Part shown: piece by piece, positions 30,005 to 61,637 of the stretch | Numbering within the stretch: the first letter of the stretch is position 1 | How the letters are laid out: every line of letters begins with the position of its first letter | Origin: Bacteroidaceae bacterium | Lineage (GTDB): Bacteria > Bacteroidota > Bacteroidia > Bacteroidales > Bacteroidaceae | DNA: 64,000 nucleotides | NCBI GenBank assembly: GCA_017557635.1 | Contig: JAFYYH010000021.1 | Coordinates: 475,161-539,160 of the forward strand | Direction: 5' to 3' | Made by a program: the position numbers and the translations under genes | Notes under the pieces: model-generated | Databases searched by the model: none | Seen by the model: only the letters and a program-made list of their open reading frames with translations | What the model was told of the DNA's origin: nothing

Positions 30005-30048
30005 TTAAGTCCGATATTAAGTCCGATACTATCACTTTAAGTCCGATA
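30005..30048 (-). repeat. three copies of a 12-base repeat across a gene junction
   Basis: TTAAGTCCGATA occurs at 30005-30016, 30017-30028 and 30037-30048; the first two are exactly tandem. The third lies inside the last codons of the giant gene (encoding ISDLK), the others between its stop (30032-30034) and the next start at 29992. They may come from slippage or serve as a binding site or translation spacer. Confidence 0.6.
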
Positions 30049-33000
30049 TTTCGCGTATCATTCTTGCTCTTAGCGCATCATGTTCTCGGGTTACCTGCTT
30101 ACGCTGCTTGCGGTCCTTTCCGTCAAGCTGACGCAGGTACTTATCATAACCGTCCATCTCCTTCTCATAGCGTTTCCACACCTCCAACACCTTGTAATCG
30201 TAACTATCAGTAACTTTCTTGTAGTACTTTTCATCACCGGCTTTCATTGCCTCCTTGAGCCTGCGCTCGGTATCCTGTGCCACCTCGCGGTAGTAGTAAT
30301 ACAAGTCAGTCACATGTGCATTACGATATCGGTCATCGTTCCATGTCATCAGACGGCGCAGGAATGGAGTGTCACTTATCTTCACCTCGCCGCCCAGCGC
30401 GTTCTCCATGAACTTGAGGCCCTTGCCTACGGTAGTGCCCACGCCACCGGTGTAACCCTCAACGATATGCTCCATGATATTGGGATTCCAGTTCACGGCA
30501 CCAGCCTCATACTCGTTACCGCCGCTAATCCAGTTCAGCGCCTCTGACAGCGCCACATACACCTTACTGGTGTTCTTAAGCGGATTGCGGTAAGCAGGAA
30601 TATGTTTCTTCTCCTCATCACTCAGGAAACGGTTCTCGTTATACACCCTTGCGCCCTTATAGTCTTTGTTTTGCCATACTTCCACAAAAGGAGTACCAAT
30701 ACTGGGCAGCACGGCAGCCAGGCCCGATGTCGCATCCAGCGGAGCAATCTCACCAATCATGCTTGCCACCTCACCCACGATGTTACGGTGCGGCTCGCGG
30801 CCCAGTGAGTGGTTGACAACCATGTCACCCATACCGTAGAACACACGTGCCTCCTGCGGCAGTGCCCATTTCAGATACACACCCTTAAGGCCAAGCAGCA
30901 GGTTGTTGCGACGCTCATAGTCGGGTACGTCAAGGTACTGGTCATCATCGTCATCATCACCATCCAGCATAGAATGCAGCACAGCGTTCATGGCACCCAG
31001 CATGAGGTAACCGCCCACCCACAAGCCCAGCTTGCTCTTGTTTTTCTTGGTCAGCAGGTACATGGCGTTAAGACCCTGGACCGATGCGTTAAAGAACATT
31101 ATCGCGTGACGGCCATATACTGACAGCATGCTGGCCAATACGGCAAACAGACGCTCTATGTCATTGAGCTTGCGGCCTTCTCTTGTGCGCAGGAACTCAC
31201 TCTCTTTCCATGTGATACCCTTACCGCTGCCTTTGCGGTTGAAGTTCACCGTCAGCTCCTTAGCATCGGCCACGCTCTCCACCACGCTCTTACCCTGCTG
31301 GCGTGATGTCAGGTATGCGGCAAAACGTGTCATCTGCTCAAAGCTCTCGCCAAACTCCTGAACAGCGTCCAGCGCTGCACCAGCACGCTCAATGGCGGTA
31401 CGTGTCTCACCAGTATATTTCTTTATCTCAGCTTCCCATACGTCAGTACCGCGGACCGATGTATAACCGGTCACACCGCCGTTCTCAACAAACAGGCGGT
31501 AGTGCTGCTCCAGCTCTCCTGTTCCCAGCTTGCCGTTCTGCAGGTCACGTTTCATACGTACCACTTTCAGAGCTTGTTTCAGGTTCTTACGGAAAGCCTC
31601 GTTGTACGCCTTATCTTCCTTGATGTTTACTGACATGAGCGCAAACAGCATATCACGCTGCAGGTTGCTCAGCCAGAACTCGGGGTTGAGTGACGTGTTG
31701 ATTGACGCAAACCCACGCAGAATTTTAAGCGTTACCTTGGTAAACTCACTCTTGCTGGCATCTACGTTCAGCTCTCCGTTGATGGCCTGAGCCGCACGTG
31801 GATTGCCGTTTATGAACATGAACATGTCACGGCCGCCCAGCTTGAATGTTATGATATGTGACTTGACCTGCTGCTTGCTGGTGTTCACCACATAGTTCAA
31901 GCGCTGCTTGTCAATCTCACGCACGCCACGGAAAGCACGGTGTTCACGTGCCAGCTGCTTCATCTCATTTTCCCACTGCTCATACTCGGCCTTTGCCTGG
32001 TCTGTTGACAGCGCCTCGGTGAACGGAGGATATTGCGGCTCAAATATGGTGCGTCCCTGGTCGTCCAGCTTGGCATTGCCATTCTCATCCACCTGTTTCA
32101 CATACCACACGTCACTTACCAATACCAGGTCATTGTCCTTTTGGCGGTTACTTACAAAGTAATACAGGGCCAGCTTGCTCTCGTTCTTAATGTCAGCAGC
32201 AATAGCTGAGCTTGCCATGGCACCGATATATGCCAGCGGTGACTCAGCCTTGGTCTTACGGCCCTTAGCCTGTTTGAGCGGTGCTACAAACGTAGCGTCA
32301 GCGTTGCTGGTGTAGTAGGAGTACATATCCTCGGGGGTAGTCTCGGCAAAGCCACGCAGCGGCACGTAGTACTTGAACATGTCACGTACGTGCTCATACT
32401 GGCCGCGGCTCATCATGTTAGCGTCATACTGGTGTTTCAGCACCGCCTTGGTAGCGCCGTTGATCTGTTTCCACAGCTCAGTCATGTAGTCGCTGCCCAT
32501 ACGTTTCTCAAAGTCTGCTATTTCGGCATCTGCGGCCAGCTCCATGTCTGACATGTTGTCAAACATGGGCTTACGTGCGGCCAGCAGGCGTTTCTCATAC
32601 GCCTCCTGCGTCTCTTTCGTTGGATCATACGGCTCAATATTCTCATACTTGGAGTAGAGACCCGTCAAACCACCGTAATCTTTCTCACGCAGCTCCTTGT
32701 ATTTGCTGTCAGTACCGGACTCAATAGCCACAAAGTGACGGTCCAATATATCATCCTCACGTGATATGCGCTTGTTTATCTCCTCATCCGTCAAATCCGG
32801 ATGCTGTTTTGCAAACTCCTTGATAGCCGCTACTTTGTTGTCATGGATAGCCTGGTAGAACGCACGTGCGTCACGCTTAGCCAGTATGTCATTACGCTCC
32901 ACACCATGTTTAAGCATCAGGTAACGCTCAATCTCATCATAGCTCATGCCGCGCTCATCAATGATAGCCTGCACGGCTTTCATCATCTTATCCCAATGCT

Positions 33001-36000
33001 CGCGCTCCCATTTCTGCATGGCGGCCAGACCTTTTGATGACTGCTGGTTAAGAGACTTGCGTATATCCTCAAATCCCTGTGCCTGTTTTTTGGAAGCTTT
33101 CTCCAGCGCGTCAACAAGAGTATTCACGCTCTGGAACTGGTCGCGGTAGGTCTCATCCATGCGAGCCCACATACGGCTCACCACGCGGTTGTAGAGGTTG
33201 GCGGCACTCTCGCCTGTACGTTCCTCAGCCTGCTGCACCCTTGCAGCCTGTGCACCGTCAGTACGGTTCTCATCATCGGCAGCACTCAGACCCAGGTTAT
33301 GAGCCAGCGCAGCACCACGTGCAATAGTAGCGATAGACTTATCACCCTGATGTGCGTTCTGGAACAGGATATAACGTAACGTGTTACCCTCAACCCATCT
33401 CCAGCCCATAGGTGCTCTATTCAGCACCTTGTCAATCATCTTATTGAACGCGGTCTCTATAATATCCCAGGTATCCTGTGACTCCGCATCATCGGTGGTG
33501 CTCTCGGCCATTGAGCCCAGATATTCCATCATGGCACGTGCAGTGTCCCAGCCATAGCTCTGCTGAGCAATCTCCACCACCTTCTGACGGAACTCTGGCA
33601 ACTCGCGGTACAGCTCCTGTGCAAACTCACGTACTGCATCGGCTCCCAGTATATCGCTGAGCGGCATTTCACGACACATAGCCATGAGTGCTGCCTCCAG
33701 CGGTGAGTCTCCGTTCAGCGCGCCAATGTTGATAGTCAGCTTGCCGTCCTGGTAAGAACTCTTAAAGCTGTTCTTAGGCTCGTTGATAACCTCAACAGCT
33801 ACACCCAGGTTAGCGCCCACAGCCTTACAGCGCTCCGTCATGTCTGCTGCGCTATCCTCATAGTCAGTAGGCTCAACGGTCCGCCATCTCACTTCATCAT
33901 CAGGACCGCCCAAGTTTCCATTATCGCCCACCTCAGAACCACCATATTCCATGCCAGGCTTGGCTGCAGAGTCCGTCACCGCGTCGCGCTTGCCCTGTAT
34001 GCTGTTTGTGTAGCCTACTCCTGTTCCTGCGGCTTCTGCCTGTGTTCTTCCTGCCAGGCTTTCTCCATCTCTTCCAGCTTGGCCATCATCGCCTTTCCTT
34101 CTTTCGTCTGCATTTTCAGTCTTTTTTATCCTGTTGACTATACCGTTAAAGAAACTCTCCAGCTGCTCATCGCCACCTGCATAACCCTTCACCCTCTCGT
34201 ATTCCCTTCTATGGAACAGGTCATGCGACAGGTTGTATGTTATGAACTCGTTGTCGGCCTCTTCCGCATCGATTTTCTTGAGCAGCTGATAGAGATCTTC
34301 CGCCCACCGTCTGGCGTCCTCCCCGTATCTGCCCGCAAAGAACCGTATCATCGAAGGAACGGCGTTTGCAGGCACCTCTCCTATGGTGCCGTGGACGTTC
34401 TCATGGAGCATCTCCGTCATGACCTGTTCGCCGGATGTGGTTTCGTCCCTTGCAAAGATAATGATTTTTGGCTCTATCCCTTCGTATTCATACCTTCCTC
34501 CGTCTTTATCCTTGTCGGCGAAATCTTCCTTGTAATCTTCGTAGAGCGCGTCGATATCAACGTTCAGCAGTATGTTCATCATCCTGCGGAAACCCTCCTT
34601 GCTGAGCATTTCCTGTCCGCTGAGGATATGCGTATCGTCGATGGTGTTGAAATCGTCTTCGTAAGCGTCTTTTATCCTCCACGTGAACTGCATCGGCGAT
34701 TCATCTTCCCTGCGGTCTGAGGTGTCGCTCATGCGGAACATGGTGGTTTCACTTTCTACGCCGTTTCTCCAGTTGTTGTAAGCATCCATTGCAGCCTGTC
34801 CCGCGCTCTTCTTGGGAGCCAGTATCTCCACGCCTCTCTCGTCAAGGATTTGCAACAGGGCAGGGGGTACTATATCAAACGTTACTCCTGTTTCGCCAAA
34901 TTCGTCTTCCCATCCATCGGCCACTTCCTCCCAGGGCACAATGCGTAAAGGCTTATCCCAGCGTGACAGTATAAGCTCGCCTCCGTTCCATCTGTGACGG
35001 CCTACACTCTTAGCGGCCTTTTCAGCCTTATATCCTGATGTAAGTTCGCTTTCCGGATACTCGGTCTCTATGTATGCCAGCTCCGGACGGTTCCAAGCCT
35101 GAGTAAACTGCTTGTTCAGGGTTGTGGGACGTATATGTATGTACGGATTGTAATCCACACCGTTTACGCTTCCGCGTCCTTGCGGCTTGATAAGGTTGAT
35201 CTTACCGTTCTTGTTGGCCAGTCCGGGATTCTCCTCAGCCTCTTCCCATTGTCCCAGATAAAATGAAGATGTAGCCTTGCTTTGTTCACCGGCTTTCCCA
35301 AGCTTTCCGGCCATAGGTGAACCAAAGCTTCCGTCTTCGTTCACCTTGACAGTCCTGTAACCCCTGGCTTTCTTGCCGGTCTCCAGTCTTGCGATGGTCA
35401 GCGGGTCAGTTACCCTGCGGAAACGTACCTCCTCGTCTCCGGAGGATTCGGGCATATCATAACGGGTCTGTTTTTCTGCCGTGCCTTCGGCCTTGGCTGC
35501 GTATCCGTTCTCAGGCTCGTTGAGCAGACCCCTGTCGGCGTATGAAAAGTAGCTGTAGTTTTCGTCTATTATGCTCAGCGCGTCCACCATCTCTATATCC
35601 GCCGTCTTGAGTAGCCTCTTGGTGGCGGCGACCGACGCGCTGTTCATGGGGATGCCGGTGCCGAAGACGCATACCAACCTCGCTCCGCAGGCTCCGGCGT
35701 AATGGGCACACTCGCGGGCCAGTCTCCTGGCTTCGTCCTCCGTACTGACATCTGTAAGGTCCGAGAAGAAGTTGCCTATCACATGCGCCGCATTGTCCAG
35801 GCACAGCACGTTGACCTTCCTTCTCTCTCCGAGACGGTGAGATGCCACGAACCGCGCCACATCCAGGGATGTCCTTATGCTCTTCATGTGCTGGGGTTTG
35901 TATTCGGGACTGAAAGCGGCCTCGTCAAACTTATACACCGGCACCTTCACCTCGTCCTTTGCCTTGTCGGGCATGTTGCCCACGGCATCCTGGCTGTTCA

Positions 36001-39000
36001 CGTCGAACGTGCCGTACACACCCCTTGTGGTGTCGATGATGATGCCGGGTGTCACGTCGGCATATCTTGCGTATGTCTTCACGAGGTCTGTGACGCTCTG
36101 GAGCAGAGCCCTGTCCTGACGGCTTGATACGATGTTGCCCGACGGATGGTTATGTACCAATGTGACCTGTTTGGGATGCACCGCGTTGAGCATCGGTATT
36201 ATCGGACTCAGATCGACGGACGAGTTGGCGATGCCGCCCATCCCTATATGCAGCACGTATGCGTCCTGCACCTTCGTGCCGGGCCCGCCGTGGAACACCA
36301 CGAAAGCGTTTTCTATGGCTTTGTTCTCCAGCTGCTTGAAGATGTAGGCTATGTCATCCAGGGATTCTATTTTGTTGCCGGCGATGAACGAGAAGTTTTT
36401 ATCTTCGCTCATCTTGCGCTCCACAAGACAGGTCTCACCCTCCTCCAGCCCCCTGAGAGGCGGTATGATGTCTTTTACTCCTTTTGGATTGTTTACGCGA
36501 GGATATGCGGCTCCTGGGGTATCTCCCTGCCGTTGTATATCAGAGGTTCCGGACCTGTCATTCTGGGTTCGTCCTGTATCTCCCTGCCGTTGTATGTCAG
36601 TGGCGGCTCCTGCATTGCTTCTGTTCTTTCCTGCAAAGTTAATGCTTCTTTGCGAACCCGCAACATTGCCGACCATCTCTTCCGGAGAGAAGAGGCTGGG
36701 GGTCTCGCGGAAACGGATACCATCCTCTTCCTTTGTAAGAGCGAGATACTTTTCCCCAACCCAACTTCCGTTTCTCCAGTATGTCAACTTGACCGGTTGC
36801 CCATGTTGGTAAAAAATTTCCTCTCCGTCTTTACGACCATCCTTATATTCGACGCTATCAATAAGGTCGCCTGACGCATTCCAAAACTCTACCCTCCCGT
36901 TAATCTTGCCATCCTTATCGAACGGCATATATTTTTTCTTTGTTCCATTCGGATGCCATTCTTCCTCCGGAGCTATTCTGTGTATGAAGTTATACTCGTC
37001 CGGTTCACCGTGTATGGACTTATGGGCCAGCTGGCCGTTAGGATACCATTCCTTGTATTCTCCCGTGATCATACTATGGTAAAATTGGCCTTTTGTTTGC
37101 TGCTGTCCGTTTTCATACCATCTTTCCATCGGTCCGTGCAACCTTCCGTCTTCATCGTATTGGAAAAATTCCTTTCTCGTTCCGTCCGGATACCATGTTT
37201 CAAATTTACCTACTCGCCTGCCATCCTTGAAGTGGCTACGCTCGATTAAAGGACCTTCAACGTCAAACCATTCCATAAACTCACCGTTGTTGCGGTTGCC
37301 TATATATGGTCTGCCAACAGACATTAGCTTGCCTGTCTCGGAGTTATATTCCATATCTGCCATCCTGCCCTGCTCGTCACCTGGAATCTTGCCGGTAACT
37401 GGAATACCGTAATAGCTGCGGTCTTGTTTATCCCACCATAGTCTATCGCCCCTGTTGGCGGAAAACGCCAGAAGCTTACCGTCCTTGAAAGCAACCTGCT
37501 TCGGATAGGAATTGTAGTAATCCCAATACTCGCGGCTCTGGCTTGTCAGATTACCTTCACCATCACCCTGTAACAAGCACCAGGGAGAAGACTCCTTGCC
37601 GAAGTGGGTATCAATGATAGCACGCATATTCTTGCGGCTCTCCTCGCTGTCATCTACGTCATAGATAACGATACCATCAGGCAGCTCACGATGCTTATGC
37701 AGTGTGCTCACCTCGTCAGGGTTGATAGGCTTCTCCTTCACCTGGATGTCAGCATGAGCGTTGATAAGCTCCATAGGTGATGAATACTTCAACGGGTCAA
37801 CCTTGGCTATTGTCGATACGGCCACAGCCTGCTCTACCTTCGGCATATCCTCCGGGAGTCTGATTGTACCCTTTGCGAACCACCAGCCGGTAGCGAGCTG
37901 GGTCTTGGCATCAGCCAGGTTATCTATGTAAGCCAGTGTTGACTCACGCTCGGCGGCATCAATGTCGGTACGCTTGTTCAGCCATGACTCAACAGTCTTG
38001 CGGTTGTTCTTGCTGAGACGGAAACGGATGTCATCGTCTTGCTCATTGAAACGCTGGGATAGGGGAATCAAGTTGCCCTGGTCATCGAAGGTGAACGTTT
38101 CGGCAGATTTTATCTGCGAAGGATAGAAAGCAACGTATTCCTTGTAATTTTCGCTCCTGTCGGCAATAACACCGTCATATCCGCCCTCTTTCAGAGCTGC
38201 CGAAAATTCTTCTGAACCTATTGCTTCGGCAATTATATACTGAATTGAGTTAGGAAGAGAGCCAAAATCGCCAGCACGTTTGCTTATAAGTTGATACCTA
38301 TAAACAGGCATTTTGTCCTGAGGCCGGTAACTGTTCTGTATTTCCTCGTCAGCCGCCAATTTTTCATCATGCTCCCCTCTCTCTATTTCCGCGTCAACAG
38401 CCTTAATGATATCAATGTATTCTCCAAGGTTAATACTCTTTTTGTATTGAGTAAGAACCAGCGCACGCAACGCAGGAATGTCAAACTTGTCAACAAGATA
38501 ATGGTATATAGTTTTATTCTCCTCTTTAACAGAATCATCTATTTCAAACGGCTTATTCATGCCAAGGAATACTTTCATAATATTCTTTGTTTCACCCAGC
38601 CAGCGAGGGGCATGAGTTCCAAAATAGAAGCCTGCACCAAACAATCCCTTGTCTTTGCTACTCTTACCCAAATAGTCAATGTCAAACTCTGTAAAGTCAT
38701 CATTTGTAGCATGTTCCACTACCAGCGGTTCTCCTTTTTTGTCAACAACCTTTGTATTGGGATAAGCGGCTTTAAATGCGTCACGGACCATGCTTTCTGC
38801 CAGCTCGGTGTCGCCACGCATATAGGCATCCTGGTAAGCCTCGTCCAGAGTCTTACGTTCAAATACGTCCGGCTCTGCAATGATATGGTCTTCACCCGGA
38901 TTCTTCTGCTTGTCATTCAGCTCGTGGGTTCTCTCGTTGTTACCGATACGGAACATCACCTGACCTTCCATGACATCGGCCTTCATTTCGGGAGTGATGT

Positions 39001-42000: not shown

Positions 42001-45000
42001 CTCCGATGGCGAACCCCAACTGTCCGCCTAATCCCAACGCCCTCGGTGATACACCAAGCATGTCGGCCAGGTCCATCAGAGCGTCATAGCTCTCGTTGAG
42101 AAACCTCTGTCGTTCCTGCTGTGTCACATAGTTGCCGAACTCCACACCGCGGAATCCGAACGTGCTGCGGAACTCTTCGGGTGACACGTTACGTCCGCCT
42201 CTGAAATCCTTACCCACTCTTGTACGCTTGCCGCCAAGTGTAAGCTCCGGTTTCCATCTGCCTTCGCCACCTGACTTCTCCCCCTTCTGCTTGCGCTGTT
42301 CGTCCAGCATACGCGCCTTCTCCTGCAGTTCCGCCTCATGGTCGCGCATATATCTTTGCACCTCGGCAGAGCTCATGGTGTCGGTCAGCGGAACAACCTT
42401 GCCGCCCAGCTTGACACCTACGTAGTCACTGTTCTTGACTCCCGGCCGATAATAGTGCACCAACTTATAGGGGTGGGATTTCTTGTAGTCCACACTTTCT
42501 GTCAGTCGGCCCACAACCTCGTCGATAGCGTCACCAAGCCTGCCCTCTTCATAGTATGATGTCCCGCCTCCGACGTGCGATGTGGCATAATATGCGTCAA
42601 CCTGCTCCATCTCACCGTTTTCGCCTCGACGGTAATATTTTGAGTTTGCCCTTGAGCCGGCAGTGAGCGGGATGATATAATAATCCTTGAGGTCCAGTCC
42701 GAACATATCGTCACCTAAGGTTTCATATATCTTCTCAAACAGGGCGATGTTATTCTTGATGTAAGCCTGTCCGTATTCGGTGAAGGCAAACCCGCTGTCC
42801 TTGAAATCAACATCGGCATTGCCGGTTTCAAGCAGCCTCTTGGCGTATGCGGCATAGAACTGCGCAGCTTTCAGGGCGTACTTTTTCCCGTAACGCTTGG
42901 TGTAGCGCTTGTATTCCTCGTATGCGGCCTGACGGAGGAACTGCACGGGTACCGCCAGTTTCGGGTCAAGCCCCTGCTCAACCATCTTCTTCAGGTCGAA
43001 CTTGGGGAACATCTTCGGGAAATTGTCCGCATCAAGGTCTATCTTGTCCGACATCTTCTGCGCCAGATCCTTGCGTGCGCCTCCTATCTTCTCACCTACA
43101 TCATCAATCCTTTCGGTCGGCTCCTTGACTTCGGCAGCTTCGCGCTTTATCTCCTTGATGCGTTCACGGCATTTCTTCTCACAGAAGTCATCCATCCGGT
43201 ATTCGGCGGAACCTTTCTCCGCCTGTTTCTTCCTTGTTGCAAACTCCTTTGCCGTGATGTCAAGCTTCTCTATGCTGTCGCTTGACATGATATAGTCGCC
43301 CACAGCCTTCTCGGCCTTGGCGATGTCCGCCGCATTGCCGGACTCATAGGCGGCACGCAGCGTTGCGGGATGATGCAGTGTCTTTTCACCGCTGGCATCA
43401 TAGGGCAGACCGCCCTGCTGCGCCCTTATCTCTTCCTCGCTCTTGCCGGTAACAAAAGCCAGCGCCTTGACCTGAGCGTCGGTAAGTTCATTATTTTCTC
43501 CGTTTTCGTTTGGTGATTCAGAACTTTGTGTATCTTTGCTCTCAGAAACGTCGGGAGCGACAGCCCTGCTCCCTTTATCGCTTTCAGGGGTAACGAGGGT
43601 GGAAGCGGATTGTTTCTTTTGAGATTTGGGTGTGTTATTATCATAAGATGTAACCACCCAATTCTTGTTTTCATTAATTATCTCACCTTTGGCGTTACGC
43701 ACATATTTTGCTGCGACTACACGCTTACCGTTCAGTTCATAGATTATCTTGTCAAGATTGTCTTTTATCTTCTTGCCATTGGCAATTATCTCCTGTATAG
43801 CTTTCTGGGCATCCTCAACCGTTTCAAAGTCTCTCCCTTTACCTACGTGTTTGTCAATGATATGCTCCAGTCCGGCATTTGACTCCTTACTACCCCAAAC
43901 CAAATCTATGTCACCCAGTTCATTGTCATGGAATACACCAAGCAGGTCGCCGCTCTTGTGTGAAACAAGAAAATCAAACGCTTCCTTAACCTTACCTTTA
44001 AACTGGTCGTAGATATTACCAAAGAATCCTCTCCCGATAGGCTGCGGTTCCTCCTTCTTGTAGTCTTTATTCCTTTCCAGGAACTCTTGGATAGTACCGG
44101 ACTTTCCGGGAGTGATGGGGTTAATATCAACCTTGATGCCGTCTATCTCCAGTCCATCTTCACCGTTCAGGGCGTTGAACAGGTCATCCTCACGGACGCT
44201 TCCTTCATATTCAACAAGTATATCCAGGTCACTGTCCTCACGGGCTGTGCCGCTGCTCCTGGAGCCTATAATACGTATGTCGGTAACACGGAAGTCATCG
44301 GGCATAGACTCGCCCAAAGTGTCTTCCATGTATTCACCTACAATCTCCTTTATCTCCTGCTCGGTGTAACCGTCAAGACCCTGGATTACTCCGTTTTGTG
44401 CAGTTCCTGATGTGCCAGTTCTAACAGGTACATTGTCACTGCGCGTCTCTGAACCTCCGGCCCGAATCCCCAAACTGCCGTTATCAGATGCTTCTCCCTG
44501 GCCCAATGAATTGCCTCGGCCGTAAACTTCATTTTGTCCGTTACCGCCTGGTATATTTCCTTCATTTTGTCGCTGAGTAGTTTCCTCTCCGGATGCTTCT
44601 CCCAGTACTCCTCCGGATGAGCCTTCCAGTACTCCTTGTCCTTCTCCGGTTCGTTCGTCTGCTTCTGTTCCATATATTGCGTTGTAATAGTTTTCTATCT
44701 CTGATTCGGGAATAAGCACAAGATCCTCTCCCGTTTCCTGTAGTTCTTCAAAGGTAACATAATCCTGGAAATTGGCAAAACCTTTTTCTTTCGCCATAGC
44801 ATCTGCCTGGCGTTCTGCCTCCTCAAGCTCTGCCTTTTCCTGCCTCTCAACAATGTCAGCATACACCTGGCGCACAAGTGCGGACGGCGATTTTGCTGAT
44901 GTCACTGCGTCAAGCACAATATCAAGAGCGTCGCTGGTGTCGTGTCCTTCTGTCATAGCCTCAGGCATATCGGCCATGATAGCCTCCGCAATCTGCTCAG

Positions 45001-48000
45001 GTGTCTTGCCGCCCTTGTCCTTGCCTGCTATCCATGCGAAGTACTGGTTCTTGTCGTGTCGTGACGCTCCGCCCTTGGTTGCAATGACGGAATGGGCCAG
45101 ACCCTTGCTGCCTGACAGGTCATCCCATAAGAATTTGTACCGTGACACCGCATAACGCACCTGAGTGGCAAAGTCCATCTCGTCAATGATATCCTCAACA
45201 GCCTTATGGAGAGTCTGGTATTCGGTAGGAGCGTTCTTGCTCAGCCTCTTGCCTTTCTTCTTCGGCTCCTTCTTAGGCGCGGGTTCCTGCTTGGCTTTCT
45301 CGGCAGCTGATGTCTCGGTTTTGGTCTCGGCTTTTGCACCCTGTTCTTCTGCGGCCTCTGCAAGGTTGATGGTATCCAGTATTGTTTGCCAGAATAATGT
45401 CTCGCGCCCGTTCTCCTTAAGCGCATCATTCAGCTTCTGCATCTGCTTTGGCGATGCGGCTTTCCTCTTGTCGGCGGCAATCTTCTTGGCCTCACCGGCC
45501 AATGCGTCGACACGGTTGGCTGCAAACTCCTTGATGGAATCTGAATCCAGTCCGGCCTCAGACATTCCCAACAAAGCGGTCTGTATATCCGGCGCTTCCG
45601 ACCATTTGTAGTCGGTTTCCCCGTCATTATCGGTAAATGACGGTATCTTGCTCAGGGCGCTTTCCTGTTTCGGTTCCTGTTTCTCCTCTCTCTTGGATTC
45701 CCTGGTCTGCTGTCTGTTGAGCAGCTTGTAGCGTGTCAGCGAGTCGGCAAGCAGACTGCTTAGGTCTTCTTCGGTGATCGTCGTGCCGGTGATCCTGTTC
45801 AGCAGGTCAAGGAGCATCTTGACAAATTGCTGCCAAGTGGTCCTGACTTCCTCTGTCGGGCTCATCCGCATCTGCTCAGCGAAGTATGCTATGAATTCAT
45901 CGGCAGCTGCCAGTCGCCTGTCTTCCTCGCTGCCTTTCAGGTGCGATACATAGCCAATGTATTCCTCCCTCTGCTCCTCGGTCATCAGCTCGTCCCATAC
46001 CCTGCGACACAGGACGGCGTAGTTACGAGCCCCAAGCAGCTCCCTGAGACCACGGTGGGAAACAACCTCGTGGATAAACGTCTCGTCCAGGTCTTTCGCA
46101 TCGTCTATGTTGGGCAGGTAGAAATACACCTCCTTGGTCTTGGTGTCATACCAACCTTTCACCTTCTCCGCGGGCTTACCTTGCTTCTCGGCTTCCATCT
46201 GCGCCTCTATCTTTTTGCGCGCCGCAGTGTTGGCGACGTCCTCCGGACGTTCGAGCATGATGACCTTGACACCTGTAGCCTTCTCCCATTCGGACGCTCT
46301 CTGCAGCACGGCCTCGTTTTTCTTCTGTTCCGGAGCCATATATGAGTTAAGAATGGCATCGTAACGGGCATCAAGGTCTTTTATCTCCTGTGCTTGCTTT
46401 TCCAGAACCTTCAGTTTACTGGGCGAGGTCTCTGCGGCTATTGCTTTTTGTGCTTCAACAAGTGCGGCCTCTGCCTTTGCGTGCAACTTCCCGATTAAGG
46501 CTATAGAACTACTACCTCCATCTTGGCGCTGCTCATCGTTCCATGCTGCCCACGCCTCGGGTGACTCCTGTATAAACGCATCTTCATTGACCGTAGGATT
46601 GCCATCCTCATCAAAAATAGGCTGGCCTTTCTCATCCATTACTATAGGAATAGCCTTACCGTTCTTGTCACGCAGCACACCTTTGTCATCAGTATATGAT
46701 GCAGGTTTAGGCTTATTCTGCTCCATGGTCATGGTATCGCCGCCTTTGGCAGCCCACGCAGCCTCATTAACTCCCAAATATGCTGCCACCTCCTCAGTTT
46801 CAAGCATCATGCTGTCGTTGTTGCCTTCCTCATCAGTGACATATACATGCAGTACCGGTGTCCCATCTTCTTTTTCCTCCCACCCTAAAGCAGCATTGAT
46901 ATGATATTTCTTGCCGTCGCGCTCCAGCGGCACCGCATCGCCGCGCTTGGCTATGACATCCACTTTGTCCTTCAGTTCCTCACGGTGTTCAATATTTACC
47001 ACCTCATCATTTTCAAGTTCTTCATCGCTTTTGCTGTCTATGGGGTTACCCATGTGCTCGGCAATCTGGGATATAGAATATTGGTTAATTTGTCCGTCAG
47101 GAGTCTGGATAACATAACCGTCCGGCAGAATCTGATTGACAATAGCTGTGCCCTGGTCCCAAGGTATTTCAGCTTGTGGAGTAAGTACGCTTTTTAAGTC
47201 CTCGGCCTGCTTGGCTTTCTCGCTACCCATACGCATCTCCTCGGCAGCCTTCTTATTCTCAACGGCATGAAGGTCCAGAAAATCCTCTTCAGTCATCCAG
47301 CCGGTATCAGCACCATTGCCGTTAGAAACAGCATCTTGAATATCTTTCTCACTCAAATAGCCTACCGAGCCATCTTCATAGTTGACACCCCACTCAGTCT
47401 CATCGCCACTAACTATATAACCGGTCTTGCCATCTATCTGTACGCGCCTTACGCCGTTCATGTATGCACTGCCGTTAGGCAGCTCACGTTTCATGGTGAA
47501 ACCGCTATGACCTTGCATACTGCCTGTCACCGCCTCACGCTCATGCTCCCTGTTAACCTTCTGGTCTATGGCATTACGTGAATCAGCCTCCAGCGCCTTA
47601 GCGGTAGTATTGATATAATCCAGTATCATCTTATAACCTGTCGCATCGCTTTCGTTGTCCTTTAGGAACTGACGCAGATATGGTGACGTGTTATGTGCAA
47701 GGTCATAAGGCGTATCACCGCCCACAGCGTCAACAAACGCTTTGGCAGCATCCTCAGTATAGCCGCTGGTATTGATAAGATAATTGTATAAACTTTCCTT
47801 CTTTGATTGCTGCTGGTTATGAAGATGTTTTCTCTGTGCAACAGACAAGGCAGCACCGCCGCCGATGGTAGGAGCAAAAGAAGTGAGCAGGATCAGCTGG
47901 TTCTCGCCACTCCAGAACTCACCCATTTCCTTTGTGTTGCCAATCTTGTTGCCGGTCATCAAGCCAGCCAGGGCACGTATATATGCACCGTTCAATTCCT

Positions 48001-49675
48001 CTCCCCATTCCTCAACTCCGCTCTGTATGCCAGCCGCTTTCATTACACGACCCACGGAACCGGAATAGAGACTACCCCATTGTCTGCGTCCTATTGCTTT
48101 CGCCAACTGTCGCTTACCAGCCTGCAGACCCTTATTGGCTAAACCTAATCCAAACTCAGAGGCGTTTTCTATATACCGGTCAAAGATACCGTCCAAAGCG
48201 CCCTCTACCGTGCGGTCCAACTCGCCCTTATCATTTATCGTTGCTATACGCTCCATCACACCTGCATAGGTAGATGGACCAACGGCAGTCTGAATGGCAC
48301 CGCCCACAAGTGCACGTGTCTCGCCAACGGCAAACTTGCCGGTTCCTTTGATTGCGGCACGTCCCAACTTGGTAGAAGCTGTACCTGCACGCTTGGCAAA
48401 CCATTTTAGCATACCCTTTGTCGCGCCATTGGCGGCAGAACCGGTAGCGCCGCTGCCCACCATCATCTCAGCCATGAACTTCATGCTGTCAGCAAATGAA
48501 CCACCGGATTTATAGCTCCAGTGAATATCCTTGTTGTCATTGGTGGCCTGACTATTACGCAGGTAAGCCTCAAGTAAAGCCTGCTCGCTGTCTGTAAGGT
48601 TGTCATCCAGAACCTTAGCCATGTCATCCTCCTGGATGTCATTATATGAACCTATCAGACCAGTAACCTTGTTGTGCAGTTTATATATGGCATGATTGCT
48701 TGTTACGGGGTCAACAAGTTCTTCCCAGAACTCTTGCTCAGTTGCTCGGTCAGCACCTCCCTCTGCCATTGATGCCACAGCCTTAGCGGTTTTTTCATAC
48801 CATGGCATACCCTGAAAATCCTTTTTCTTAGTAGCGCCATACAACTTGATGGACTCATCTATGAGTTGGTTGGCGGCTTTATAATTTGCCTCATCTTCAG
48901 CGTTACCTGTCAGGTGGCTTGTCACATTCATCGTTCCTGGCTGCTCTGACGATACAAGTGCGGCCGGATTACCTGCGAGCGCCAGTCTGTTAAGAAATAG
49001 TCTGCGCCTTGCGCTTTTGTCATTAGGATTATTTTGAGCAGCAATATCCTGTTTAGCCAACTTATTCCACTTAGCTTCATTGGCTGCCTTCTGTTTTTTC
49101 AGGTCCTCAACGGTCTGATTACGGTAGTCGTTACGCTTTGATATTACAGCAGGATTGTTTTCATAAGCCTCTTGCTTTGTTTGGAGCTGATTTACAAGCT
49201 CATCATAATACCGCTTGTTTTCAGCAACATATTCATTTGCCTTTTTCCTGCGTTCTTCGGGCAAAGAGTCATCATCAAGCTCTGATTGTCTGGCCTCATA
49301 CTCCGCTATAAAGTCTCCATTGGTACGGTCAAACTCATCCAGTTCTGCTTGTTGTGTCTTGGCGCGTTCGCCCCAATAGTCATAGGGACGCATACGCTCC
49401 ACCTTGACATCTTTGTTATCCTCAACAAAGCGCTGCACGTTGGGAGTATGATAATCTTCGTTGGAATAGGTCTTTGAGTTGCCGTTAGGCAGTGTGAGTG
49501 TAAAGATATCATCTTTAGTATCCTCGTTCTCTACAGGTGCCAGAGGCTGTAACTCATACACTTTATACTGTTGGTCACTCTGCAAGAAATTCTGCACGTT
49601 AGGGGATGAGAACTCATCCTCTGTATATCTCTTTGACTTGCCGCCAGGCAACTCAATAACATAATCCTTTGCCAT
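30032..49675 (-). CDS. giant 6547-residue polyvalent virion protein with multiple enzyme modules
   Basis: One uninterrupted 19.6-kb frame. Modules: twin repeats at 4-45 and 57-98 (PNGNSKTY...PNVQRF); helical Gly/Ala-rich region about 390-620; zincin-like HEVVSH at 1202-1207; nucleotidyltransferase GSRSSGTARED at 1804 with Asp1816/1818; BECR/MuF_C-like GLEHIIDKH at 1938-1943; LPD1 with HEWWHALD at 2590; phosphoribosyltransferase loop DNVVDSGET at 2910; DEIQSKRHQEG module at 3267; ADP-ribosyltransferase (ART-PolyVal type, His3655 to IKSA near 3855); MORN/YwqK-like repeats about 4140-4310; RadC/JAMM HNHPSG at 4508 plus a degenerate second copy; HENVH at 5091; LPD38-like C-terminus with hydrophobic helices near 6175-6236. 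Probably packed in the virion and delivered into the cell with DNA, as in other polyvalent protein phages. Confidence 0.9.
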   Translation of the reverse strand: MAKDYVIELPGGKSKRYTEDEFSSPNVQNFLQSDQQYKVYELQPLAPVENEDTKDDIFTLTLPNGNSKTYSNEDYHTPNVQRFVEDNKDVKVERMRPYDYWGERAKTQQAELDEFDRTNGDFIAEYEARQSELDDDSLPEERRKKANEYVAENKRYYDELVNQLQTKQEAYENNPAVISKRNDYRNQTVEDLKKQKAANEAKWNKLAKQDIAAQNNPNDKSARRRLFLNRLALAGNPAALVSSEQPGTMNVTSHLTGNAEDEANYKAANQLIDESIKLYGATKKKDFQGMPWYEKTAKAVASMAEGGADRATEQEFWEELVDPVTSNHAIYKLHNKVTGLIGSYNDIQEDDMAKVLDDNLTDSEQALLEAYLRNSQATNDNKDIHWSYKSGGSFADSMKFMAEMMVGSGATGSAANGATKGMLKWFAKRAGTASTKLGRAAIKGTGKFAVGETRALVGGAIQTAVGPSTYAGVMERIATINDKGELDRTVEGALDGIFDRYIENASEFGLGLANKGLQAGKRQLAKAIGRRQWGSLYSGSVGRVMKAAGIQSGVEEWGEELNGAYIRALAGLMTGNKIGNTKEMGEFWSGENQLILLTSFAPTIGGGAALSVAQRKHLHNQQQSKKESLYNYLINTSGYTEDAAKAFVDAVGGDTPYDLAHNTSPYLRQFLKDNESDATGYKMILDYINTTAKALEADSRNAIDQKVNREHEREAVTGSMQGHSGFTMKRELPNGSAYMNGVRRVQIDGKTGYIVSGDETEWGVNYEDGSVGYLSEKDIQDAVSNGNGADTGWMTEEDFLDLHAVENKKAAEEMRMGSEKAKQAEDLKSVLTPQAEIPWDQGTAIVNQILPDGYVIQTPDGQINQYSISQIAEHMGNPIDSKSDEELENDEVVNIEHREELKDKVDVIAKRGDAVPLERDGKKYHINAALGWEEKEDGTPVLHVYVTDEEGNNDSMMLETEEVAAYLGVNEAAWAAKGGDTMTMEQNKPKPASYTDDKGVLRDKNGKAIPIVMDEKGQPIFDEDGNPTVNEDAFIQESPEAWAAWNDEQRQDGGSSSIALIGKLHAKAEAALVEAQKAIAAETSPSKLKVLEKQAQEIKDLDARYDAILNSYMAPEQKKNEAVLQRASEWEKATGVKVIMLERPEDVANTAARKKIEAQMEAEKQGKPAEKVKGWYDTKTKEVYFYLPNIDDAKDLDETFIHEVVSHRGLRELLGARNYAVLCRRVWDELMTEEQREEYIGYVSHLKGSEEDRRLAAADEFIAYFAEQMRMSPTEEVRTTWQQFVKMLLDLLNRITGTTITEEDLSSLLADSLTRYKLLNRQQTRESKREEKQEPKQESALSKIPSFTDNDGETDYKWSEAPDIQTALLGMSEAGLDSDSIKEFAANRVDALAGEAKKIAADKRKAASPKQMQKLNDALKENGRETLFWQTILDTINLAEAAEEQGAKAETKTETSAAEKAKQEPAPKKEPKKKGKRLSKNAPTEYQTLHKAVEDIIDEMDFATQVRYAVSRYKFLWDDLSGSKGLAHSVIATKGGASRHDKNQYFAWIAGKDKGGKTPEQIAEAIMADMPEAMTEGHDTSDALDIVLDAVTSAKSPSALVRQVYADIVERQEKAELEEAERQADAMAKEKGFANFQDYVTFEELQETGEDLVLIPESEIENYYNAIYGTEADERTGEGQGVLEGSSGGVLGEASGEETTQRQNEGNIPGGNGQNEVYGRGNSLGQGEASDNGSLGIRAGGSETRSDNVPVRTGTSGTAQNGVIQGLDGYTEQEIKEIVGEYMEDTLGESMPDDFRVTDIRIIGSRSSGTAREDSDLDILVEYEGSVREDDLFNALNGEDGLEIDGIKVDINPITPGKSGTIQEFLERNKDYKKEEPQPIGRGFFGNIYDQFKGKVKEAFDFLVSHKSGDLLGVFHDNELGDIDLVWGSKESNAGLEHIIDKHVGKGRDFETVEDAQKAIQEIIANGKKIKDNLDKIIYELNGKRVVAAKYVRNAKGEIINENKNWVVTSYDNNTPKSQKKQSASTLVTPESDKGSRAVAPDVSESKDTQSSESPNENGENNELTDAQVKALAFVTGKSEEEIRAQQGGLPYDASGEKTLHHPATLRAAYESGNAADIAKAEKAVGDYIMSSDSIEKLDITAKEFATRKKQAEKGSAEYRMDDFCEKKCRERIKEIKREAAEVKEPTERIDDVGEKIGGARKDLAQKMSDKIDLDADNFPKMFPKFDLKKMVEQGLDPKLAVPVQFLRQAAYEEYKRYTKRYGKKYALKAAQFYAAYAKRLLETGNADVDFKDSGFAFTEYGQAYIKNNIALFEKIYETLGDDMFGLDLKDYYIIPLTAGSRANSKYYRRGENGEMEQVDAYYATSHVGGGTSYYEEGRLGDAIDEVVGRLTESVDYKKSHPYKLVHYYRPGVKNSDYVGVKLGGKVVPLTDTMSSAEVQRYMRDHEAELQEKARMLDEQRKQKGEKSGGEGRWKPELTLGGKRTRVGKDFRGGRNVSPEEFRSTFGFRGVEFGNYVTQQERQRFLNESYDALMDLADMLGVSPRALGLGGQLGFAIGARGGGGQAAAHYEPGKNVINLTKTQGAGSLAHEWWHALDYFLNRDSEGRRKKSATANRRQEDFNTEAASTETINAFLRLMRAIEDSEYMERSKQLEEKVHPNRIGEGYYDKPTELAARAFQDYVQRRLTNSGQINDFLSSFTPDEKWNGEPDTYPYPQGEEATRLGSVFDSMFATMQEREEDGNVVLFRMAGEQAEQARLDKEYVEAVKSGDIDKALDMLREKALTTEGITGYVAPNAYSGSHRDVAKLIKTGKSDAVQKAAADMARFVPNNAVLVPIPSHEGKVTDETDTKILADAVAEITGSPVVVALEGNPRESRYQAKQQGKEGLKADELGFRQIAEIPEGKIPVFIDNVVDSGETAKAASEAIKGGFTMAYAKGVRSNPTSDLKNMTVTYDDNGNLIPLSQRFDADNTDVRFREANANQAIFVSNAQKAVENIKQEKATPEQWLAMIRSKGGLKAGEDKWMGLSQWLNDKKAEGVKTLTKPEVLDFIDSNKIEIEEERYAEEGAFRNTARFKEFNDEYRNLVADSEEKWEEADRDYAEFMDDMRGKYGEDWDSAMTDSESHVEEQLLEAREMWQENPAEAAFNYMVEEYGDDFGTAFMYDEDGLDIADPDAAAYYLEGDGIINDVRLGYTTEGLENKREIALTVPTIEPWDESDKTHFGDAGGGTAIGWIRFGETWTREDAGITHPVTGKEVSAKRDAKTLVIDEIQSKRHQEGREKGYRNPISAEQKDLYNELKSNHYEAINRLSAFVALLNSKYGSEAKFVKPEDLFEPGNKGHERWLASFSKEDRSRYNTLDEEVRKASVAVNNMEEELGGGDFDTRVPDAPFDKNWPELCMKRMLRLAAEEGYGKMAWTSGEIQADRYDLGRQVRSIFAGFDQDGNRGLLIHLLDGPTIDIIHDDKGNIIKHNSVIDGLDAAKNISDLVGKEIAADALTITGKGTANGREYKDDALRVGISGMQGFYDKMLPAFMTKYGKQWGVKPELQEFPDIHGKWWTIDITPEMKADVMEGQVMFRIGNNERTHELNDKQKNPGEDHIIAEPDVFERKTLDEAYQDAYMRGDTELAESMVRDAFKAAYPNTKVVDKKGEPLVVEHATNDDFTEFDIDYLGKSSKDKGLFGAGFYFGTHAPRWLGETKNIMKVFLGMNKPFEIDDSVKEENKTIYHYLVDKFDIPALRALVLTQYKKSINLGEYIDIIKAVDAEIERGEHDEKLAADEEIQNSYRPQDKMPVYRYQLISKRAGDFGSLPNSIQYIIAEAIGSEEFSAALKEGGYDGVIADRSENYKEYVAFYPSQIKSAETFTFDDQGNLIPLSQRFNEQDDDIRFRLSKNNRKTVESWLNKRTDIDAAERESTLAYIDNLADAKTQLATGWWFAKGTIRLPEDMPKVEQAVAVSTIAKVDPLKYSSPMELINAHADIQVKEKPINPDEVSTLHKHRELPDGIVIYDVDDSEESRKNMRAIIDTHFGKESSPWCLLQGDGEGNLTSQSREYWDYYNSYPKQVAFKDGKLLAFSANRGDRLWWDKQDRSYYGIPVTGKIPGDEQGRMADMEYNSETGKLMSVGRPYIGNRNNGEFMEWFDVEGPLIERSHFKDGRRVGKFETWYPDGTRKEFFQYDEDGRLHGPMERWYENGQQQTKGQFYHSMITGEYKEWYPNGQLAHKSIHGEPDEYNFIHRIAPEEEWHPNGTKKKYMPFDKDGKINGRVEFWNASGDLIDSVEYKDGRKDGEEIFYQHGQPVKLTYWRNGSWVGEKYLALTKEEDGIRFRETPSLFSPEEMVGNVAGSQRSINFAGKNRSNAGAATDIQRQGDTGRTQNDRSGTSDIQRQGDTPGAAYPRVNNPKGVKDIIPPLRGLEEGETCLVERKMSEDKNFSFIAGNKIESLDDIAYIFKQLENKAIENAFVVFHGGPGTKVQDAYVLHIGMGGIANSSVDLSPIIPMLNAVHPKQVTLVHNHPSGNIVSSRQDRALLQSVTDLVKTYARYADVTPGIIIDTTRGVYGTFDVNSQDAVGNMPDKAKDEVKVPVYKFDEAAFSPEYKPQHMKSIRTSLDVARFVASHRLGERRKVNVLCLDNAAHVIGNFFSDLTDVSTEDEARRLARECAHYAGACGARLVCVFGTGIPMNSASVAATKRLLKTADIEMVDALSIIDENYSYFSYADRGLLNEPENGYAAKAEGTAEKQTRYDMPESSGDEEVRFRRVTDPLTIARLETGKKARGYRTVKVNEDGSFGSPMAGKLGKAGEQSKATSSFYLGQWEEAEENPGLANKNGKINLIKPQGRGSVNGVDYNPYIHIRPTTLNKQFTQAWNRPELAYIETEYPESELTSGYKAEKAAKSVGRHRWNGGELILSRWDKPLRIVPWEEVADGWEDEFGETGVTFDIVPPALLQILDERGVEILAPKKSAGQAAMDAYNNWRNGVESETTMFRMSDTSDRREDESPMQFTWRIKDAYEDDFNTIDDTHILSGQEMLSKEGFRRMMNILLNVDIDALYEDYKEDFADKDKDGGRYEYEGIEPKIIIFARDETTSGEQVMTEMLHENVHGTIGEVPANAVPSMIRFFAGRYGEDARRWAEDLYQLLKKIDAEEADNEFITYNLSHDLFHRREYERVKGYAGGDEQLESFFNGIVNRIKKTENADERRKGDDGQAGRDGESLAGRTQAEAAGTGVGYTNSIQGKRDAVTDSAAKPGMEYGGSEVGDNGNLGGPDDEVRWRTVEPTDYEDSAADMTERCKAVGANLGVAVEVINEPKNSFKSSYQDGKLTINIGALNGDSPLEAALMAMCREMPLSDILGADAVREFAQELYRELPEFRQKVVEIAQQSYGWDTARAMMEYLGSMAESTTDDAESQDTWDIIETAFNKMIDKVLNRAPMGWRWVEGNTLRYILFQNAHQGDKSIATIARGAALAHNLGLSAADDENRTDGAQAARVQQAEERTGESAANLYNRVVSRMWARMDETYRDQFQSVNTLVDALEKASKKQAQGFEDIRKSLNQQSSKGLAAMQKWEREHWDKMMKAVQAIIDERGMSYDEIERYLMLKHGVERNDILAKRDARAFYQAIHDNKVAAIKEFAKQHPDLTDEEINKRISREDDILDRHFVAIESGTDSKYKELREKDYGGLTGLYSKYENIEPYDPTKETQEAYEKRLLAARKPMFDNMSDMELAADAEIADFEKRMGSDYMTELWKQINGATKAVLKHQYDANMMSRGQYEHVRDMFKYYVPLRGFAETTPEDMYSYYTSNADATFVAPLKQAKGRKTKAESPLAYIGAMASSAIAADIKNESKLALYYFVSNRQKDNDLVLVSDVWYVKQVDENGNAKLDDQGRTIFEPQYPPFTEALSTDQAKAEYEQWENEMKQLAREHRAFRGVREIDKQRLNYVVNTSKQQVKSHIITFKLGGRDMFMFINGNPRAAQAINGELNVDASKSEFTKVTLKILRGFASINTSLNPEFWLSNLQRDMLFALMSVNIKEDKAYNEAFRKNLKQALKVVRMKRDLQNGKLGTGELEQHYRLFVENGGVTGYTSVRGTDVWEAEIKKYTGETRTAIERAGAALDAVQEFGESFEQMTRFAAYLTSRQQGKSVVESVADAKELTVNFNRKGSGKGITWKESEFLRTREGRKLNDIERLFAVLASMLSVYGRHAIMFFNASVQGLNAMYLLTKKNKSKLGLWVGGYLMLGAMNAVLHSMLDGDDDDDDQYLDVPDYERRNNLLLGLKGVYLKWALPQEARVFYGMGDMVVNHSLGREPHRNIVGEVASMIGEIAPLDATSGLAAVLPSIGTPFVEVWQNKDYKGARVYNENRFLSDEEKKHIPAYRNPLKNTSKVYVALSEALNWISGGNEYEAGAVNWNPNIMEHIVEGYTGGVGTTVGKGLKFMENALGGEVKISDTPFLRRLMTWNDDRYRNAHVTDLYYYYREVAQDTERRLKEAMKAGDEKYYKKVTDSYDYKVLEVWKRYEKEMDGYDKYLRQLDGKDRKQRKQVTREHDALRARMIREISDLK

Positions 49676-49695: not shown

Positions 49696-51042
49696 TTAGC
49701 CTGCAACAGGAAAGCCGTCTTTATCTGTTTTTATCTCATTTTTCTGAGGTCCCTGCTGTTGCTGCTCACCTATGTTGTAGGAGTTAATGGAAACTCTGCG
49801 CAAAGCCTCTACAAGAGTGGGGGAGTACATGGCCGCTGTTTGTATCTGAGTTTGAAGGTCGGTACCAGATAGCTTACCTTCAGTGAACATGTCACCCTTA
49901 GCACCTTTCAGCTGGTTAACTATAGCATCCAAATCAAATCCTGCGGCCGCCAGTTCCTCTTTCACCTGCTTATCCTGAGCATAAGACAGGATAGTGTTTT
50001 TAAGGCTGTTGGGGTGAACATACATCACCACGGCGTTACGGTCACCATAAGCAGGTATTTCAAGCGCCTGTGCGCCCATTTTCTTGGCTGCCGTCGCTGG
50101 ATCGTAACTGAAACCTCCGTTGCCGTCAGGAACAAGACCCTGCTTAAGGAGTTCAATGTTAAATCTGGTCTCATCAGCACTGTATCTTTGCTTTATAGCA
50201 GCCATCTCAACATCCTGGCCTCGCATCTGTGCCTCAATCCTTTTAGCTGCCAGTACGTCACTGACAGTATTACGTCCGCGCTCATACGCCTCATCATCCT
50301 CGGCTTTCCGCTGTTGTGCCAGACCCATTGCATTGGCACCCTTGAGTTTTCTCAGGTTCAGCTGCTCGACAATCTGCTCCTTGGTAAACTGGTGCCTTGC
50401 GTTCTCACCGGCCATTTCCTGCTGGCGCAGTTTGTCACGCATACGGTCCAGACGTTCCCGTTCCTGTAAGCGGTGTTGGTCGACTTCACGCATCCAGTCT
50501 TGAGTGACGGTACGCGGCTGCTGGTTGACAGCACCGCGGCTGGTACCTATAAGGTTGGTGAGCGCGCTGGCAAACTCCGTCACGCCGGCAAACACACTCT
50601 TAGTGGTGTCAATCTGCCTCTGCAGCTCAGCCTCTTTCTTGGCCTCTCGCAGCTCGTTCTGATAACCCTCTACTATTTTACCAAGAAAGTTCTGATAATT
50701 GGCGTTAGCGGCTGCATTGGCTTTTGCAGCATCCTCGGCCGCCTGTTCCATATCCCTGTTTGCCTGTTCCATGACAGTAGATACGGTGCGGTTTACCTCA
50801 ACACCCTCTACATCCTCACCATTATCGGTGTCATGAGTAGTGGCGGCAGGCTGTGTGCCAGCAGCCATTTGAGCTGCCGATATGCCTGGCTGCACCTGTC
50901 CCTGGAGTGCTGCAGCCTGCTGCTTTTGCGCAGCTGCCAATTCAGCCGCCTGAGCGGCCAGCCTTTCCTGTTCCTCGCGCTTTCTGCGCTCCTCCAGCTC
51001 GTTCTGGAGTTCCATTGTTTGCTGTGAACCTGTTGACGGCAT
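49696..51042 (-). CDS. coiled-coil internal virion protein
   Basis: 448 residues rich in Gln, Ala and Glu, mostly helical: NELEERRKREEQERLAAQ near the start, long helices about 90-300 (REVDQHRLQERERLDRMRDK), and a compact C-terminal part (GDRNAVVMYVHPNSLKNTIL). It is encoded directly upstream of the giant protein and downstream of a small membrane-active protein, the order of the ejected core proteins of T7-like phages. A start at MELQNELEERR, nine codons downstream, is also possible. Confidence 0.65.
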   Translation of the reverse strand: MPSTGSQQTMELQNELEERRKREEQERLAAQAAELAAAQKQQAAALQGQVQPGISAAQMAAGTQPAATTHDTDNGEDVEGVEVNRTVSTVMEQANRDMEQAAEDAAKANAAANANYQNFLGKIVEGYQNELREAKKEAELQRQIDTTKSVFAGVTEFASALTNLIGTSRGAVNQQPRTVTQDWMREVDQHRLQERERLDRMRDKLRQQEMAGENARHQFTKEQIVEQLNLRKLKGANAMGLAQQRKAEDDEAYERGRNTVSDVLAAKRIEAQMRGQDVEMAAIKQRYSADETRFNIELLKQGLVPDGNGGFSYDPATAAKKMGAQALEIPAYGDRNAVVMYVHPNSLKNTILSYAQDKQVKEELAAAGFDLDAIVNQLKGAKGDMFTEGKLSGTDLQTQIQTAAMYSPTLVEALRRVSINSYNIGEQQQQGPQKNEIKTDKDGFPVAG

Positions 51043-51653: not shown

Positions 51654-51713
51654 AGTAATGTAATTTGAGTTTATAAACCAACCCAAAATAAAAAAAGACC
51701 GCCCCTAACAGCA

Positions 51714-61626: not shown

Positions 61627-61637
61627 TCAATCATTAG

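Follow-up and report, generated by a model that had tools for sequence, protein, structure and literature searches.

Phage-type polyvalent proteins carry unrelated enzyme domains in one chain, together with LPD domains and commonly, though not in every case, a zincin, in a portal/terminase setting. In its available text, the survey of Iyer et al. 2017 (PMC5512222) gives them 2-15 domains per chain, predicts that they are processed by the zincin, and tells of the N4 virion polymerase, which has such a peptidase and is packaged uncut. DarB-like giants of Bcep22-like podoviruses, such as JC1 gp69, are multi-domain proteins encoded after two smaller genes; according to the available text of PMC9144972, JC1 has proteins of 196, 510 and 4515 aa in this gene order, all in CsCl-purified virions, with 51 unique peptides from gp69. 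Giants are also known from the Bacteroides phages BS-TP4, BKO1-TP3 and BF1-TP2, each with one HExxxH peptidase. In T7, the ejection proteins gp14, gp15 and gp16 are a small protein with a hydrophobic start, a medium one and a large one, in that order.

Here we describe a giant of this kind from a prophage of a gut-type Bacteroidaceae bacterium, encoded in a 64,000-nucleotide stretch of one contig (the window). It belongs to the phage-type polyvalent proteins, and its novelty lies in how it is built. It shares with them the features given above and differs in having RadC and a pol-beta nucleotidyltransferase beside LPD38, which the available text of PMC5512222 reports from conjugative elements only. 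With the three Bacteroides phages it shares gene order and the C-terminal block (26-30% identity), while their cargo is different (ddrB-ParB, InPase, helicase, PBECR5). To JC1 the likeness is one of gene order; JC1 was not among the best 30 of 120 matches listed, and Burkholderia did not occur in the organism tally. The small, medium, large order is also that of T7, although the small protein of the window has no PDB sequence match and the C-terminal block has no PDB fold match.

A giant polyvalent protein and its setting

The frame is uninterrupted over its 19.6 kb and 6547 residues, as an initial annotation of the window had claimed; among the 298 ORFs of at least 150 aa in 400 kb of the same contig, taken as a control, the longest has 1449 aa. 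The source genome bin is 2.4 Mb and 89% complete. The prophage around the giant has an integrase gene (7217-8317), an SU10-type capsid gene (17709-19430), and terminase and portal genes. The following features were identified, with the basis of each call in brackets:

30032-49675, minus: giant polyvalent ORF, 6547 aa (ORF call)
45200-49675, minus: N-block, residues 1-1492, constant with the sister prophage G305 (88.8% identity)
45686-46258, minus: HExxxH metallopeptidase region, residues 1140-1330, HEVVSH at 1202 (motif and alignment)
44084-44308, minus: nucleotidyltransferase NTP_transf_2 PF01909, residues 1790-1864 (Pfam E 2.8e-8)
43631-43933, minus: PBECR1 PF18809, nuclease-like, residues 1915-2015 (Pfam E 2.3e-16)
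42164-42454, minus: LPD5-like PF18799, residues 2408-2504 (26.7 of 27 bits, just below cut-off)
41894-41908, minus: HEWWH site, residues 2590-2594 (motif)
41465-41689, minus: LPD1 PF18796, residues 2663-2737 (Pfam E 9.5e-17)
40760-41428, minus: phosphoribosyltransferase-like module (PRT), residues 2750-2972 (weak)
38951-40714, minus: ANAN module, residues 2988-3575 (confident fold, weakly GNAT-like)
38099-38743, minus: ADP-ribosyltransferase ART-PolyVal PF18760, residues 3645-3859 (Pfam E 1.1e-17)
36719-38017, minus: module with MORN_2 repeats, residues 3887-4319 (MORN_2 just below cut-off)
36077-36337, minus: RadC/JAB domain, residues 4447-4533 (Pfam E 3.3e-9)
34811-35416, minus: M4751 module, residues 4754-4955 (widespread in relatives, unknown fold)
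34391-34405, minus: HENVH site, residues 5091-5095 (motif; zincin reading unsupported)
33236-33880, minus: degenerate peptidase copy without HExxxH, residues 5266-5480 (alignment to peptidase)
30035-33880, minus: C-block chassis, residues 5266-6547, mostly helical, common to giants of many phages (alignment, model)
30359-30946, minus: LPD38 PF18857, residues 6244-6439 (Pfam E 5.2e-27)
49696-51042, minus: 448-aa gene directly upstream, medium member of a conserved trio (no Pfam or PHROG match)
51060-51686, minus: 208-aa gene, aligned from Met 12, small trio member with hydrophobic/Gly-rich start (no Pfam or PHROG match)

NTP_transf_2, PBECR1, LPD1, ART-PolyVal, RadC and LPD38 each score above their own Pfam cut-off, which upholds the nucleotidyltransferase (1804), BECR-type nuclease-like (1938), ADP-ribosyltransferase (3655), RadC/JAMM (4508) and LPD1/LPD38-type modules of the initial annotation. 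Four of these (nucleotidyltransferase, PBECR1, ART and RadC) give the chain more than one unrelated activity, and together with the portal and terminase genes and the HExxxH peptidase they bear out its reading as a phage-type polyvalent protein. The HxHPSG motif and the D of the RadC domain are kept in 4 relatives, and MORN_2 near residue 4204 scores 29.5 of 29.6 bits. The phosphoribosyltransferase placed at 2910 is a weaker call: Pribosyltran reaches 12.8 of 26.3 bits and the fold matches of the region, phosphoribosyltransferases among them, have E 0.8-1.6, although residues 2906-2918, which we take to be a PRPP-loop-like stretch, are conserved in G305. The nucleotidyltransferase module matches the PADLOC candidate family PDC-S09 weakly (best E 2.7e-6); PADLOC otherwise matched, weakly, one helix stretch of the C-block.

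Three zincin-like sites had been proposed, at 1202, 2590 and 5091. The first belongs to a conserved HExxxH family in which H, E and H are invariant in 10 aligned rows and a later E is nearly so. HEWWH at 2590 lies about 70 residues ahead of the LPD1 match. The zincin reading of 5091 is unsupported, and residues 4955-5261 around it have no match among 180 related proteins; since a chance HExxH is rare (0.14 per shuffle, with two or more in 1.2% of shuffles), HENVH is an unusual site and a candidate only. PDB sequence searches with the peptidase, ANAN, M4751, the small gene and the C-block gave nothing better than E 0.18, and the model of residues 2740-3890 had no PDB fold match at E 0.001.

The number of modules joined and their order had been called unusual. 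Chains of up to 15 domains are described in the available text of PMC5512222, and relatives with frames of 6613, 6655 and 7630 aa are known, so the window's giant is among the largest and not the largest; the 15 giants we compared, including the window's, span 3312 to 7630 aa. The order of the modules, for its part, is not the same even in sister prophages.

Of 399 genomes sampled from the family, 12 (the source genome counted among them) encode a relative of the last 1348 residues, as do 3 of 37 at genus level; two family genomes with short frames only (G216, 877 aa; G049, 357 aa) were left out and not rebuilt. Two named bacterial records have a close C-block, both from uncultured Bacteroidaceae, one from red deer and one from water-buffalo rumen. 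LPD38 is found in 7 of 393 genomes of the order, in frames of 1190 to 6562 aa of which the window's is the longest. In the phylum sample, some 30 genomes (genera g288 and g293, family f136) have LPD38 in short frames, ~200-260 aa in most rows, which might be a stand-alone form of this chassis domain in a simpler virion or host protein.

The two neighbours reported for the giant are there, as smaller conserved genes that complete a trio. Across 15 loci, the small/medium/giant order is kept with 12 aligned small genes and a partial one in BS-TP4; none was found for G114, and the G305 locus ends too early. Because this gene order is the same as in JC1, packaging of the trio is likely, and the giant is thus likely carried in the virus particle; this we infer from gene order and from a distant phage tested by mass spectrometry. 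The fold that the C-block has in common with phage giants also speaks for packaging.

Several further observations concern the prophage. The window ends at the contig end, with a tRNA-Ser at 61637-61724, and the right border was not found; comparison of 6.8-8.4 kb with 58-64 kb gave no integration repeat above 11 bp. A 989-aa late-region protein (13394-16363, minus) has a calcineurin-like metallophosphatase domain (Pfam E 2.4e-6), likely in a tail or spike protein. The genes on either side of the terminase block (20349-23375, plus) run the opposite way to it; one product of the block is a small hydrophobic protein (20759-21220). An inverted block occupies the equivalent position in the three Bacteroides phages and encodes a protein annotated as rhomboid-like; the BKO1-TP3 protein is annotated instead as a glycoside hydrolase, with a rhomboid structure match. 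The DNA of the giant gene has 32 families of direct repeats, the 20 listed being short and mostly two-copy.

Constant ends and exchanged cargo

Comparison with sister prophages separates the giant into parts that stay and parts that move. In G305, residues 1-1492 are 88.8% and residues 5268-6547 are 88.2% identical to the window. In G402 and G404, the C-block is 92.2% and 89.9% identical, and the N-block differs from that of the window (32% and 30%). Overall, the last 1,280-1,310 residues of the sister prophages are 88-92% identical, yet the cargo is reordered or different. The window has PRT, ANAN, ART, MORN and RadC in that order; G305 has PRT, RadC, a methyltransferase, ANAN and MORN, and no ART module was found in it. 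G402 and G404 have ddrB-ParB (just below cut-off in G404), a SNF2-type helicase and RadC, with a kinase in G404, of which about residues 2550-3700 were left out of the Pfam scan.

The model of residues 5348-6547 (59 rows) is mostly helical, with pLDDT 82.2 and pTM 0.72. It has no PDB fold match at E 0.001 and matches predicted proteins of many phages, a Ralstonia phage protein among them (75 at E <=0.001, best TM 0.61). N-block relatives were searched for in viral contigs with no match.

A single intact HExxxHxGLR peptidase copy is found in the window's protein, in the N-block. A second copy lies just before the modelled C-block region. In the window, G305 and G402 this copy no longer has HExxxH, whereas in giants of other lineages it is kept in a predicted active form. 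Because the C-block copy is dead in the window's lineage and kept in others, exactly one HExxxHxGLR is present in 14 of 15 giants, the exception being G114 with none. Among 89 viral frames of at least 3000 aa, 49 have one, 2 have two and 38 have none.

Connectors at the module borders

In the second half of the cargo, the borders between modules coincide with a short peptide, the connector. Seven sites in the window fit [IVL][RML][FW]R:

41435-41446, minus: VLFR, residues 2744-2747, near breakpoint (motif)
40748-40759, minus: VRFR, residues 2973-2976, near breakpoint and DNA block border (motif)
38948-38959, minus: VMFR, residues 3573-3576, near breakpoint (motif)
38018-38029, minus: IRFR, residues 3883-3886, near breakpoint and DNA block border (motif)
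36707-36718, minus: IRFR, residues 4320-4323, near breakpoint (motif)
35417-35428, minus: VRFR, residues 4750-4753, near breakpoint (motif)
33881-33892, minus: VRWR, residues 5262-5265, near breakpoint (motif)

Five of the seven fit the stricter [IV]R[FW]R, for which 0.08 are expected by shuffling and 0.10 from host ORFs. Among the three Bacteroides phages, this form is confined to BF1-TP2, whose giant has 4, placed around its ART, PBECR5 and peptidase modules. All seven sites of the window have a breakpoint within 15 residues (P 0.001). Conversely, 16 of the 56 distinct breakpoints in residues 1400-5300 have a connector no more than 30 residues away (P 0.00015); the 16 before residue 2740 have none near. 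The coincidence extends to the nucleotide level. There, the PRT block that the window has in common with G305 runs to codon 2975.7, and the ANAN block (90% identical) begins at 2973.3, so that both borders fall on connector codons, and the next block begins two codons ahead of the connector at 3883. The unrelated PRT and ART modules end with the same tail, GNLIPLSQRF-x5-D[VI]RFR. A broader form, [IVML][RMLK][FWY][RS], was rejected for the window: it occurs 8 times versus 2.69 expected, but the shuffle maximum is 9.

The motif was first spotted by eye in the window and the patterns were set afterwards; 106 viral frames serve as an independent set. These non-redundant frames come from 166 loci in four viral-contig scans with module alignments (the best 80 of 221 relatives being kept in the peptidase scan), were gathered with the window protein's own modules, and are in many cases cut by 10-kb flanks. 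The acid-preceded pattern [DE][DEGN]?[IV]R[FWY][RS] occurs 57 times in 40 of the 106 (mean 5.8 and at most 11 in 20 shuffles). For 45 of these occurrences a breakpoint is no more than 15 residues away (2000 random trials gave a mean of 11.1 and a maximum of 23), compared with 136 of 467 versus 97.7 for an acidic-stretch control. It is this form that stands out; the bare [ILVM][RK][FWY][RS], tried as a signature, is hardly enriched (148 vs 120.9).

The last residue divides connectors into two types, R (35 of 66) and S (31 of 66). Within one protein it is identical in 34 of 34 pairs from 14 proteins, and under a looser pattern it agrees in 73 of 78 pairs from 30 proteins; G305, a near relative of the window, was excluded from this test. 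The connector ahead of M4751 agrees with the others of its carrier in 14 of 14 testable cases, and that ahead of ANAN in 8 of 9 (L146 disagrees). The M4751 tree (30 rows) has 5 R/S changes, at least 4 of them forced by supported branches, and places the R-type copy of the window among S-type copies. Where a joint exists, its last residue follows the carrier and not the module. Many M4751 borders have no recognisable connector, including those of the closest copies (L137-L139, 68-70%). At the level of sequence, the comparisons show a constant chassis, exchangeable cargo and seams at the joints.

Our literature search found no earlier report of a standard carrier-matched connector. The available text of PMC5512222 leaves such a feature at module borders unmentioned and has no word beginning 'linker'. 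A 36-aa connector tag searched against phages and plasmids gave weak matches (best E 0.04 and 5).

Cleavage or seam

We propose, with somewhat more confidence than doubt, that the giant is a virion-borne polyprotein of a temperate Bacteroidaceae phage, with a constant chassis, swappable cargo, standard joints and processing sites at the joints. Its constant ends are the helical C-terminal chassis of ~1,280 residues and the N-block with the only intact HExxxHxGLR peptidase. Between them stand some dozen enzyme-like modules in a row, whose order and content change from one sister prophage to another by rearrangement, loss and replacement. Exchange points in the latter half of this cargo lie on the connector, an acidic stretch ending in [IV]-R-[FW]-R here and in [IV]-R-[FY]-S in other carriers. 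The virion would take up the small, medium and giant proteins as a set, and they would exit the capsid along with the DNA. The connectors would then be cut, most likely by the resident peptidase or else by a partner, and the freed single modules could act on host defence or host metabolism. The short joint, in other words, may be the point at which the chain is divided into functional parts.

Cleavage at the connectors, a live alternative to injection of the whole chain uncut, is a hypothesis for which evidence can be cited either way. It is favoured by the one peptidase per chain, the uniform connectors of each carrier, the conservation of the peptide and not of its codons, and the link between R-type connectors and the peptidase. 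This link is seen as HExxxHxGLR in 22 of 23 R-type carriers versus 5 of 21 S-type, and is confounded, the peptidase itself having been the bait for many loci; among loci recovered by the other scans the figures are 3 of 3 versus 4 of 20 (P about 0.02, a hand count uncorrected for kinship). Cleavage is weakened by giants that have the peptidase and no connector ([IV]R[FW]R is absent from 10 of 15 giants, and 9 of these 10 have the peptidase), by a connector density that does not rise with the peptidase (1.25 with versus 1.43 per 10,000 aa without), by the M4751 borders and the breakpoints before residue 2740 that have no connector, by the disagreeing ANAN border of L146, and by the uncut N4 polymerase. 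A more specific proposal, which we advance tentatively and with the balance of our judgement against it, is a processing code: [IV]RFR or [IV]R[FY]S joints would be cut by the carrier's own peptidase, connector and peptidase would co-evolve, and cargo would pass between carriers.

The main rival to cleavage is a pure recombination seam, in which crossovers fall at or by a short shared sequence, or a module takes a conserved tail along when it moves, and the chain functions without being cut. We consider this somewhat unlikely. It explains why exchange points coincide with connectors and dispenses with the protease; the 10-mer TCCGTTTCCG, present in 3 copies in the window, all at connectors, with 0.13 expected, also speaks for it, as do the many borders without a connector and the failure of density to track the peptidase. 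However, codons differ among the connectors of one gene while the peptide stays, as in G305, where five IRFR are written in four codon strings. Imported tails would also mix carriers, whereas all 34 pairs agree despite at least 4 changes of carrier type by a module, although the carrier would retain its own residue if the crossover fell just past the joint.

It is improbable, in our view, that the joint is instead a flexible or unfolding linker that lets a long chain thread through portal and tail and is kept uniform in each carrier by the ejection machinery of that phage. Connectors do sit in hydrophilic, acid-rich stretches (2.40 vs 0.94 acidic among the last six residues), and two of the three modelled are in segments with pLDDT <50. 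Nevertheless, a linker would not require an invariant aromatic with R or S after it, and the low pLDDT is weak evidence because the model is poor throughout the PRT and ART flanks. Finally, we regard as very improbable a decaying or host-retained prophage whose giant is no longer used in virions, for which one could cite the contig end and missing integration repeat, the host-retained polyvalent proteins described in the available text of PMC5512222 and the weak PADLOC match, but against which stand 19.6 kb without a stop, the portal, terminase, capsid and integrase genes, the likewise open frames of the sister copies (C-block identity 88-93%), and relatives in three named Bacteroides phages.

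Ever since multi-enzyme phage proteins were first described, it has been asked how they give rise to separate working enzymes. If the processing code proposed above is real, cargo modules would behave like cartridges with a lineage-specific fitting. A standard joint provides a rule by which these giants, for the most part without annotation, can be split into units open to testing, and it predicts the places of cleavage.
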